The notes under the pieces were generated by a model, which worked only from the letters and a program-made list of their open reading frames with translations, had not been told where the DNA came from and made no database searches. Shown here piece by piece: positions 12,748 through 44,849 of a stretch of DNA of 64,000 bases (the stretch's first letter is position 1; the number at the start of each line of letters is the position of its first letter). A program made the translations under genes and the position numbers. This DNA is from Psychrobacter sp. NZS113 (GTDB lineage: Bacteria > Pseudomonadota > Gammaproteobacteria > Pseudomonadales > Moraxellaceae), in the NCBI RefSeq assembly GCF_015864825.1, contig NZ_JADYWL010000001.1, positions 372,001 to 436,000 of the forward strand, written 5' to 3'.

Positions 12748-13021
12748 GAGTAAAGGAGTTGCTCATTGACTAGTGAGGTCTCTTGGCAGATTCAAGATAT
12801 TCAATAGGCATTTAAATGATCTAAACGCATTCGATAGAACTAATAGACCAACTCATGACGAGATGGGTAAAGTCATAAGAGATTGATGAGTGTTTCATTA
12901 CTAAAATTATGTATATTAAAATTAATCCTTAAATTAAAAATAATGCTATTAAAACCTCTAATAAACAGATATATTTACCTATGGTAATATATGGAATGGT
13001 ATAAAGCTAGAGGTGAATAAA

Positions 13022-13267
13022 GTGCTGATAGGAAGTGATTTAACCCGCGTGATGCTCGAAAATGGTTGTCAGGATATATGGTGTGCGGTAGATGATAATA
13101 GCGATGAAGATGCTATGAGAGATCAAATCGAGAATGATTTTACAGCGAGAATTGTATCTTATGACAATGAAAAATTCTACTGTACGGCAGGTATGGCATG
13201 GTTATGTGCCGTGCCAATCAAAGTGTTGCCGATGACGTTAAGTGATGTGAAATTCGAAATATCGTAA
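13022..13267 (+). CDS. Small hypothetical protein
   Basis: 81-residue ORF with a probable GTG start at 13022; AGAGG at 13009-13013 lies 8 nt upstream. An in-frame GTG at 13013 would overlap this ribosome site and is less likely. The product is acidic and soluble-looking, beginning MLIGSDLTRVMLENG and containing the pattern WCAVDDNSDEDAM; it has a CTAGMAWLCAVPI segment near residues 61-73. It is followed directly by a terminator, which supports it being a real gene. No domain recognised. Confidence 0.55.
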   Translation: MLIGSDLTRVMLENGCQDIWCAVDDNSDEDAMRDQIENDFTARIVSYDNEKFYCTAGMAWLCAVPIKVLPMTLSDVKFEIS

Positions 13268-13309: not shown

Positions 13310-13334
13310 AACCCACCGTTAAGTGGGTTTTTTA
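13310..13334 (+). terminator. Terminator after the small hypothetical gene
   Basis: Hairpin AACCCAC (13310-13316) / GTGGGTT (13323-13329) followed by T-run. Confidence 0.85.
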
Positions 13335-13447
13335 ATTTAGGGCAGAGAAGATTCTGATAGGAATTTTATAACCAAAATGCTCAGATGGTTATAAAAGGGC
13401 ACTATATGGATATAAACAATAAAAATTTTATTAATAAATAAATGTAG

Positions 13448-13541
13448 ACAAAAAAGAGCCCACAAAGGAGGAACTGTGGGCTGAGGAAAACTGAGCGTGT
13501 AGTAATAACTATGATGACTACAAGGGCAGTGATTGGGCGTT
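13448..13541 (-). ncRNA. Candidate small RNA with anti-Shine-Dalgarno terminator loop
   Basis: A minus-strand transcription unit with no ORF. The end is a strong Rho-independent terminator: stem AGCCCACA/TGTGGGCT (13482-13475 and 13464-13457), then six U (13455-13450). The 10-nt loop reads GUUCCUCCUU on the RNA, so CCUCC, complementary to the ribosome-binding core GGAGG, is displayed in the loop. A TATAAT on the minus strand at 13553-13548, with a weak TTAGAG 17 bp further up, would start an RNA of about 94 nt near 13541. The 5' part is C-rich and unpaired-looking (CGCCCAAUCACUGCCC, UUUUCCUCAG). C-rich CCUCC-loop RNAs that block ribosome sites are known in other proteobacteria; this one is an inference from the sequence alone. 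Confidence 0.55.
13450..13482 (-). terminator. Minus-strand terminator of the candidate small RNA
   Basis: 8-bp stem AGCCCACA/TGTGGGCT, loop GTTCCTCCTT on the minus strand, followed by CTTTTTT. On the plus strand the hairpin is followed by GAGGAAAA, so it works in the minus direction only. No minus-strand protein gene ends here. Confidence 0.85.
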
Positions 13542-13547
13542 GTTGTT

Positions 13548-13553
13548 ATTATA
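13548..13553 (-). promoter_or_regulatory. Putative -10 box of the candidate small RNA
   Basis: Perfect TATAAT read on the minus strand, about 7 nt before the predicted start of the RNA. The -35 candidate TTAGAG (13576-13571) is 17 bp upstream but a poor match. Confidence 0.4.
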
Positions 13554-13957
13554 AAATTTCTACTATTGCTCTCTAAGATTAGAGTAGTAGTGGTTAATTC
13601 AATAGGCAGATGTAGTTACTTACCTATTTAAGTGTACAAGTGTTTTATTGGAATGACTATCATAGCGTAAACAGTCACAGTTTGGCTGTTTTAGTTACAT
13701 GATATTACGTTTAAAAAGACATTTAGAAGAGGTATTTGATAGAACATATACGTTAGTATAATGCGAATAAACATGAATGATTTTGTGGTTTTATGCGCAT
13801 TACTAATAAATAATGTGAATACTTCATAGTTATATGATGATTACGGATGGATTTTAATATAATTGGTAACTTAGTAGCTAAAGAGATGGCATGACGACTT
13901 GCCCGAAAAATGCTAAGCTATCTGCCATTATTATGTCTATATGAAACTGGGTTTGCC

Positions 13958-14638
13958 ATGACTGAAAATACGCATTTGCATACGCAGGAGCCATCAAGTA
14001 CGCAAAATACCAAGAGTATTTTTAACTTGCCCAATAATCTGACTATTGCGCGAATATTAATGATTCCGCTATTTGTCGCCATTGCTTATTGGCCACCTTC
14101 CATGGGCATCGGTATGCCAGCCATCTCAGATAATGTGATTGCGCGAGTAGGCATGAGTGAGTTTAGCGATAGCTTGGTACGTCATTTATTATTGACGGGC
14201 GTTTTTATTATCGCTGCGATTACCGATTGGTTAGATGGCTATTTTGCGCGTAAGCTCAATGTGATGTCAGCCTTTGGACGGTTTTTGGATCCCGTCGCTG
14301 ATAAACTGATGGTCGCGGTAGCGCTTATCATCTTAGTACAGTGGCATCCCAATATCATAATGGCGATCGCTGCCATCGTGATTATCTCGCGTGAAATCGC
14401 GGTATCTGCGTTGCGTGAGTGGATGGCAGAGTTGGGTAAAAGTACCAGTGTGGCTGTGTCTTATGTGGGTAAGCTTAAGACAACATTCCAGATGGTGGCA
14501 ATTACCGTGCTATTGCTCAATTGGGAATCACTTGAAACCATTGGCTATGTATTGATGGTAGCAGCTGTTGTTCTGACCTTATGGTCGATGATGATTTATC
14601 TAAGAGCTGCTTGGCCATATCTCAAGCAGAGTGGTTAA
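13958..14638 (+). CDS. pgsA: CDP-diacylglycerol-glycerol-3-phosphate 3-phosphatidyltransferase
   Basis: 226-residue membrane enzyme for the first committed step of phosphatidylglycerol synthesis. The CDP-alcohol phosphotransferase signature is intact: DWLDGYFARKLNVMSAFGR followed by FLDPVADK, giving the D-x2-D-G-x2-A-R-x8-G-x3-D-x3-D pattern. Several membrane segments follow. The start is placed at the ATG at 13958 (MTENTHLHTQ); the frame runs open to 13910, but that stretch looks less like protein. The chain is longer than the usual 180-190 residues through an N-terminal tail of about 25 residues and an insert after the first membrane segment (PPSMGIGMPAISDN...). The final residues are also membrane-like. 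Confidence 0.93.
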   Translation: MTENTHLHTQEPSSTQNTKSIFNLPNNLTIARILMIPLFVAIAYWPPSMGIGMPAISDNVIARVGMSEFSDSLVRHLLLTGVFIIAAITDWLDGYFARKLNVMSAFGRFLDPVADKLMVAVALIILVQWHPNIIMAIAAIVIISREIAVSALREWMAELGKSTSVAVSYVGKLKTTFQMVAITVLLLNWESLETIGYVLMVAAVVLTLWSMMIYLRAAWPYLKQSG

Positions 14639-44477: not shown

Positions 44478-44849
44478 ACGATGGAATTCAATAAGTTATA
44501 AGTACGCTCATATATTGACGACTATATTTCAGATGGAATATAAAAAATAAAATTTTTTGATTATATAGAAACATGATGGAAACAACAGGTATTGTTACAC
44601 TTAATTACAATTTAATGGCTTGCTACTATCCTAATTTCATGACAAATTAGAGTCATACCAACAACGAAATCTAAGTGTCGATTTAGCGCATTTATAGTAG
44701 CAATCAGAAGATAATGAAAGGATATATCGGCATTTTACTGGGTGTACTGGCTATAAAAGATAGTAGAGCGATTGTTGGTAAAGCAGGGTGATAAGAGCAG
44801 GAATGCTACTTCATCTGTTGACTGTAAGTACAATCAAAAGGACAATAAT
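44478..44849. other. Spacer between rpoN and hpf
   Basis: 372 bp, AT-rich. A 25-codon frame starting at ATG 44714 (MKGYIGILLGVLAIKDSR) is preceded only by a closely spaced AGAAG and is not called. No terminator after rpoN is visible, so hpf may be co-transcribed with rpoN as well as having its own promoter. Confidence 0.35.

Follow-up and report, generated by a model that had tools for sequence, protein, structure and literature searches.

Organization of the locus

The locus described here lies in a 64,000-nucleotide stretch of the genome of Psychrobacter sp. NZS113 (the window), in a spacer of ~640-690 bp that extends from the end of a plus-strand open reading frame (ORF) at position 13267 to the start of the pgsA gene at 13958 (alternative start 13910). 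An earlier interpretation made from the letters alone (the sequence-only reading) had placed a C-rich small RNA (sRNA) on the minus strand of this spacer, without a minus-strand protein gene before it. Of minus-strand ORFs of at least 40 aa, the only one listed in the spacer is a 42-aa frame with a TTG start (13465-13337). The features that we assign to the locus are the following, with the evidence for each in brackets:

13450-13570, minus strand: candidate sRNA gene, both ends predicted (conservation across the genus, alignment and promoter elements)
13457-13482, minus strand: intrinsic terminator hairpin with a 9-bp stem and an 8-nt loop, then U6 (sequence, fold and alignment)
13467-13471, minus strand: CCUCC of the terminator loop, proposed seed (conservation against background hairpins)
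13483-13490, minus strand: linker UUUUCCUC, second proposed pairing site (alignment and 85 loci)
13490-13530, minus strand: 5' hairpin, with ACUG (13530-13527) facing CAGU (13493-13490) and UGUAG (13522-13518) facing CUACA (13502-13498) (covariation and permutation)
13539-13550, minus strand: AAN repeat AAUAACAACAAC, proposed Hfq distal-face site if transcription starts upstream of it (enrichment)
13576-13602, minus strand: candidate promoter P2, TTGAAT (13602-13597), 15 bp, TAATCT (13581-13576) (like elements elsewhere, by eye)
13610-13623, minus strand: box B, GTAAGTAACTACAT here with a degenerate second half, GTAAGCAGATGTAAG in other species (comparison across species)
13659-13664, minus strand: TATGAT, -10 element of candidate promoter P1, 30 bp past box A (conserved across the 45 distinct segments that make up the box A profile)
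13695-13708, minus strand: box A, GTAATATCATGTAA, a direct repeat with 10-bp pitch (comparison across species)
13958-14638, plus strand: pgsA, the divergent neighbour (TIGR00560 above cut-off)

A DNA search with 161 minus-strand bases of the locus returned one match each in 85 of 100 sampled Psychrobacter genomes, the source genome included, and in 79 of the 93 genomes of good quality. The pgsA gene is present in the fetched flank of 81 of the 85 loci, a gene for an NAD(P)-binding oxidoreductase in that of 50, and the 84-aa ORF in that of 17, all three counts being lower bounds because the flanks span only 0.75-1.5 kb and are shorter at contig ends. In the window the 84-aa ORF (13013-13267, plus strand) has no match in Pfam or NCBIfam; a plus-strand terminator-like stretch at ~13311-13335 was spotted by eye and is absent from the computed terminator list. 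A search of the whole window against Rfam at curated cut-offs matched no family, and the four sub-threshold matches at the candidate locus (E up to 5), namely, three snoRNA families and a Nitrosomonas sRNA (8.7 bits), all fall far below the cut-offs. No paper on a Psychrobacter sRNA was among the open-access literature matches listed.

A hairpin and a terminator in a long spacer are also what a leader or an attenuator ahead of a minus-strand gene would show, and a same-strand ATG ORF of 60 aa does start within 300 nt past the terminator in 12 of the 85 loci. However, the other 73 loci have none, and in the window the candidate gene points away from pgsA and toward the 3' ends of plus-strand genes; the genes beyond the terminator, the 84-aa ORF and the oxidoreductase gene, lie on the opposite strand. 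We consider a leader extremely unlikely.

Conserved hairpins and C-rich sites

The minus strand from 13560 to 13440 folds at -22.1 kcal/mol, compared with a mean of -12.15 kcal/mol for shuffled sequences (z = -3.8, none of 200 shuffles as good). The terminator stem is formed by AGCCCACAG and TTGTGGGCT around the loop TTCCTCCT, followed by CTTTTTT (minus strand, 13482-13457); the loop of the window's species reads UUCCUCCU, and the U tract occupies 13455-13450. Hairpin, CCUCC loop and U tract are thus found where the sequence-only reading had put a strong terminator. CUCC is present in the terminator loop of 83 of the 85 loci and CCUCC in 74, whereas among 333 terminator-like hairpins from 860 kb of the same genome only three carry CUCC and one carries CCUCC in the loop, with loops of up to 12 nt allowed for the 85 loci and up to 10 nt for the background. 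The single CCUCC-loop hairpin of the background, which is also one of its three CUCC hairpins, is the terminator of the sRNA locus itself. Loss of the stem and loop in close relatives, which would have spoken against an sRNA, is not seen; the closest match (G017) is 94% identical over all 161 bases.

To count base pairs we used an alignment (A2) of 33 of the 85 loci, from which we had removed duplicates, near-duplicates and any row whose 5' end was unclear. In these 33 sequences all eight counted pairs of the terminator are formed in 100% of the cells, with three of the eight changed on both sides, and CUCCU in the loop is invariant or nearly so. The UUUCCUC of the linker is invariant across the same diverse rows, and UUUCCUCRG occurs in all 85 loci. 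In the predicted folds the linker is mostly unpaired, with two pairs extending into it in L032 and L062, and the folds and the 85 loci together place CUCC at an unpaired, conserved position. These results support the C-rich sRNA gene of the sequence-only reading, with a CUCC loop that is conserved, but the loop is only one of two C-rich sites.

The 5' hairpin shows changes on both sides at seven of its nine pairs, and the whole structure at 10 of 17, giving 35 such cells, compared with 9.8 on average in shuffles; these counts are inflated by kinship among the rows, and shared ancestry is not removed by the permutation and shuffle tests. Four of five covariation measures were reached by none of 500 shuffles and the fifth (pair types) by 15. 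A perfect partner to the 4-mer preceding UUUCC exists in 27 of the 33 rows (10.3 rows on average in permutations, none of 5000 reaching 27), with interchangeable outer stems: ACUG/CAGU in 14 of 15 rows of its own class, ACGG/CCGU in six of six, and ACUU/AAGU in five of seven. Chance partners of another class are rare, the largest case being two of six CCGU rows for AAGU, as well as an overlapping TAAG for AAGU rows. Of the rare outer-stem classes, four in number, three have no perfect partner, namely, CAGC (one of two rows), TAGU and CUGU. When the partner is shifted by one to three columns, so that the ancestry of the rows is retained, paired cells fall from 92.5% to 31-50%. Covariation among related genomes had been named in the sequence-only reading as a check on the RNA, and it is present: the 5' hairpin covaries, and changes in the terminator stem are compensated.

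The pairs also bear on the strand. Read on the minus strand, they contain 36 G-U cells and 13 A-C cells, and this excess, together with the U tract past the hairpin, argues for a minus-strand RNA. CsrA recognizes GGA in a hairpin loop, and on the plus strand the hairpin would indeed present AGGAGGA in its loop, as expected of a functional RNA acting as a CsrA sponge. We regard such a sponge as very unlikely, since the plus strand has no U tract after the hairpin and the ratio of 36 to 13 favours the minus strand.

A strong terminator with no regulatory role, for instance for transcription arriving from the pgsA side, would account for the complete terminator and for its position downstream of conserved promoter-like elements. 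However, only five of the 85 loci have an open frame longer than 80 codons whose end falls within the 250 nt upstream, leaving 80 without a long open frame close upstream on the minus strand; the loop and the linker are kept beyond the need of a terminator while the stem letters are swapped by compensation; and there is a second, covarying hairpin. We therefore think this explanation unlikely. Judging from conservation and structure, the locus is very probably a real, non-coding sRNA gene of ~92-120 nt, present as one copy in most of the sampled Psychrobacter species.

Distribution in Psychrobacter and other Moraxellaceae

The source genome has one copy according to a covariance model built from the 33 sequences. 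A degenerate exact pattern searched in the contigs of 84,980 species genomes hit 55 stretches, all 55 labelled Psychrobacter, and a plasmid collection gave no match to the locus. We ran the covariance model on the 15 genus genomes without a DNA match, and found a divergent copy beside pgsA in five of them (G078, G088, G055, G014 and G021), all of which retain UUUCCUCA ahead of the hairpin; in G088 and G055 this copy has the linker, but CUCC is gone from the loop. The remaining ten of the 100 genomes gave no sRNA, either genome-wide with the covariance model (E 0.01) or around pgsA, where 1.5 kb upstream was searched for nine of them and 191 bases for G084, at a contig end. A weak covariance match elsewhere in G023 (E 0.03) is a terminator that directly follows a 328-aa ORF; its linker is UUUUCCUUAG, and its long loop contains CCCUCC. 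The weak matches in G005 (two), G035 and G084 and the second one in G014 were rejected as homologues, as they lack the linker and none is beside pgsA. In six loci (L045, L065, L070, L075, L080 and L084) the linker and terminator are retained while the 5' part is different.

The two species whose pgsA-side copy lost CUCC, G088 and G055, are also those that share a second element away from pgsA (L097 1501-1587 and L099 1501-1585, respectively, both on the minus strand; covariance E 2.4e-4 and 0.05), consisting of UUUCCUCCU followed by the hairpin CCCAGAU...AUCUGGGUA and then U7. The G088 element has the loop UUCCUCCU and lies near a 311-aa ORF. This element may be a second, related sRNA.

In a sample of the family, the covariance model matched at E 0.01 in 71 of 199 genomes and three of 16 genera, with 11 matches outside Psychrobacter. 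Four of these are beside pgsA with the UUUCCUC linker, two having the loop ACCUCCU (G105 and G130) and two lacking CUCC (G166 and G187). Five others are not near pgsA: G168, G173 and G108 have the linker, the AAN repeat and the loop CCCCUCCUU; G179 has the linker and a CCCCUCCUU stem-loop; and G164 has the linker and the loop ACUCCUU. For the first three (L120, L121 and L122) there is no pgsA within 1.5 kb of the element, which in L120 lies ~260 nt past a same-strand 394-aa ORF, and the element seems to have moved in the genus of these genomes. In other genera of the family the stem letters differ around a CUCCU that is unchanged in several cases, e.g., CCCACUG-CCCCUCCUU-CAGUGGG and CCAUUGC-UCACCUCCU-GCAAUGG. 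Across genera, then, the linker is retained most widely, followed by CUCC, while stem letters are swapped by compensation. The last two matches, in G145 (E 1.5e-4) and G150 (E 3.1e-5), were rejected as homologues because they are away from pgsA, lack the linker and represent the terminator of a 122-aa ORF. In these two genomes, which belong to another genus of the family, this minus-strand ORF (L124 in G150, L125 in G145) is followed by a hairpin very similar to that of the sRNA, CCCACAG-UACCUCCUU-CUGUGGG, which could be a relative derived from a 3' UTR or a product of chance.

Candidate promoters and regulator

Two boxes of the form GTAA-N6-GTAA lie upstream of the candidate gene, and this pattern recurs in 79 of the 85 upstream regions (up to 330 nt). 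Box A (ACGTAAtgtcaTGTAAC) is followed after 30 bp by TATGAT. Box B, which is GTAAGCAGATGTAAG in many species, precedes a hexamer like TATCTT or TATATT by 28-29 bp. Box A is intact and box B degenerate in the window's species. A 10-bp direct repeat at such a distance from the -10 element is a usual geometry of OmpR-family activators, and the Escherichia coli CpxR box GTAAA-N5-GTAAA resembles the boxes seen here. The locus thus has an OmpR-family-type promoter layout, a direct repeat with 10-bp pitch upstream of a -10-like hexamer. The bare GTAA-N6-GTAA box is not enriched in the window (five against 2.35 expected, with 9 of 100 shuffles reaching five); GTAA-N5-TGTAA with a -10-like hexamer occurs at three places in 860 kb of the genome, the sRNA locus included. 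A block ACACTTGTACACT is conserved between the two candidate promoters (~13630-13645 in the window) and lies at similar places in other species, and 69 of the 85 loci have TGTA[CA]AC upstream.

The genome encodes eight proteins with an OmpR-type DNA-binding domain. Three exceed an NCBIfam cut-off, namely, PhoB, OmpR and a heavy-metal regulator (CzcR/SilR/CopR type), and the others, CpxR and RstA among them, are named by nearest family only. None of the eight regulator genes has an exact GTAA-N6-GTAA box near its start, and a looser GTAA pattern turned up near them at one place, in L208. Looser GTAA repeats number 13 in 860 kb, six of them intergenic, which is too few for a regulon to be defined. 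The words motif, binding site and consensus do not occur in a paper on BfmRS (PMC11784087). On balance, the conserved boxes incline us toward response-regulator control of the sRNA. Elsewhere in the window, at 44560-44608 on the minus strand, GTAA-N5-TGTAA occurs a second time, again with TATAAT at this distance, between plus-strand ORFs of 572 and 152 aa, which we take to be rpoN- and hpf-like. No minus-strand gene or listed terminator follows this box, and it may instead serve a plus-strand gene.

The weakest part of the sequence-only reading is the start at 13541, which it derived from TATAAT at 13553-13548. The hexamer is present, but TAGAGA, its -35 partner at 16 bp, is weak, TATAAT lies 40-85 nt ahead of the UUUCC linker in only 11 of the 85 loci, and it overlaps the AAN repeat AAUAACAACAAC, which is what is conserved at this place. 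Promoter-like matches in the region number six, fewer than in shuffles (mean 10.5). In L065 box A lies ~108 nt ahead of the linker, so the TATAAT past box A could start the RNA directly. As judged from sequence, the 5' end is either at ~13569 (from P2, giving an RNA of ~120 nt) or at ~13541 (from TATAAT, ~92 nt). For the window's species, an RNA starting from P2 is predicted to refold with loss of the 5' hairpin, which the short form retains, and this favours the shorter form in that species.

Hfq and the search for targets

Hfq is encoded in the genome (PF17209, 102.7 bits, above cut-off). Both the AAN run and the U-rich tail of the candidate RNA are conserved. AANAANAA occurs in 48 of 73 distinct upstream segments, where shuffles give 5.9 on average and 13 at most; the AAN run would be part of the RNA only if the start lies upstream of it. 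The strong enrichment of AANAANAA and the presence of hfq would also fit an RNA that acts on a protein, with the AAN repeat and U tail titrating Hfq (or Hfq-Crc, in the manner of CrcZ) and the C-rich parts being structural. CrcZ-type RNAs, however, carry several AAN runs and the sRNA locus only one, the invariant letters are chiefly those of the C-rich linker, the loop and the 3' stem, and the AAN run may lie in the promoter if the start is at 13541. Titration therefore appears unlikely, and we favour an RNA whose C-rich sites pair with mRNAs.

For such pairing we scanned 667 start regions from 860 kb, i.e., about a quarter of the genome, with crude gene calls and a control taken 200 nt downstream. 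Linker pairing at or below -14 kcal/mol was found for 64 start regions and 133 control regions, and loop pairing for three and six, respectively, so that neither site shows an excess over the control and no target is named. GGAGG occurs 20 to 5 bases ahead of the start in 12 of the 667 sampled genes (crude calls), suggesting that the loop could address a small set of mRNAs at most. Ten-letter complements were also tried: TGAGGAAAAC occurs at four places in the genome (3 and 1 for the reversed-pattern control) and AAAGGAGGAA at two (control 0), one of them in each case being the sRNA locus. Throughout the genome, no match of either complement outside the locus directly precedes an ORF start, and they were discarded as a target finder.

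Proposed mode of action

We propose, with a probability of roughly 0.65, that the locus encodes an Hfq-type trans-acting sRNA that is perhaps switched on by an OmpR-family regulator and pairs through two C-rich sites with ribosome-binding sites. As the conserved boxes suggest, an OmpR-family response regulator, perhaps one sensing envelope stress, would bind GTAA-N6-GTAA and switch on transcription away from pgsA. The RNA would end at the CCUCC-loop terminator, in line with the sequence and the conserved structure, and Hfq, whose gene is present, would bind the U tail, as well as the AAN repeat if the start lies upstream of it. The linker UUUUCCUC and the CUCC of the loop would then pair with GAGG or GGAG in the ribosome-binding sites of a limited number of mRNAs, thereby blocking their translation, an assumption based on conservation and two analogues. 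The main reason for a pairing role is that the two C-rich sites are the most conserved parts of the RNA and are complementary to Shine-Dalgarno-like sequence. Pairing of CUCC with mRNA start regions is, on conservation and analogy, probable. As the target search gave no signal, the mechanism is argued from conservation and from the two experimentally worked-out analogues, Aar and LhrC (see below). The locus is conserved enough to serve as a firmly anchored sRNA in this genus of cold-adapted bacteria. The terminator loop is seemingly kept tighter than the stem; if so, termination, Hfq loading and target pairing would be linked in a single element.

Comparison with known small RNAs

The Neisseria sibling sRNAs NgncR_162/163 are reportedly C-rich anti-Shine-Dalgarno sRNAs. 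As described (PMC9973317), they are two sibling copies with metabolic targets, unlike the one-copy Psychrobacter RNA. The AbcR sRNAs of alphaproteobacteria are alike in that a short regulatory motif controls several mRNAs, a likeness of description, and they belong to a different bacterial group from Psychrobacter (PMC5461406 and PMC8844928).

The closest in design to the Psychrobacter RNA are LhrC1-5 of Listeria monocytogenes, a likeness that is again one of description with no homology claimed. According to PMC4132741, these RNAs carry CUCCC and a U run in loop A, in a single-stranded stretch and in the terminator loop, bind lapB mRNA at the Shine-Dalgarno sequence, and require the response regulator LisR for expression under envelope stress. 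On the other hand, Listeria has five copies, whereas Psychrobacter has one copy with two C-rich sites and a regulator that is only predicted. Tentatively, an LhrC-like design, i.e., an envelope-stress regulator, tandem boxes and promoters, a redundant anti-Shine-Dalgarno pair and a terminator-loop seed, might have arisen independently in Moraxellaceae, in which case the loop letters might be maintained by selection as those of the stem are replaced.

Acinetobacter belongs to the same family as Psychrobacter, Moraxellaceae, and PMC11472050 describes in Acinetobacter baumannii the stress-responsive Aar, an RNA of ~100 nt with two hairpins in its 3' part ahead of a poly(U) tail, in which a CUCC seed pairs with the ribosome-binding sites of carO, bfnH and other mRNAs. 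That account reports Aar from Acinetobacter only. The sequence-only reading had held an RNA of the CCUCC type to be new for Moraxellaceae, which does not stand because Aar, with its proven CUCC seed, was already known. Compared by description only, the two RNAs are alike in size, in having two hairpins and a U tail, and in CUCC, but the CUCC of Aar (nt 29-32) lies in its single-stranded 5' part (up to nt 38) and that of the Psychrobacter RNA in the terminator loop. The Psychrobacter RNA is thus of an already known kind, with CUCC seeds as in Aar and similar ones as in LhrC, and stands outside Rfam.
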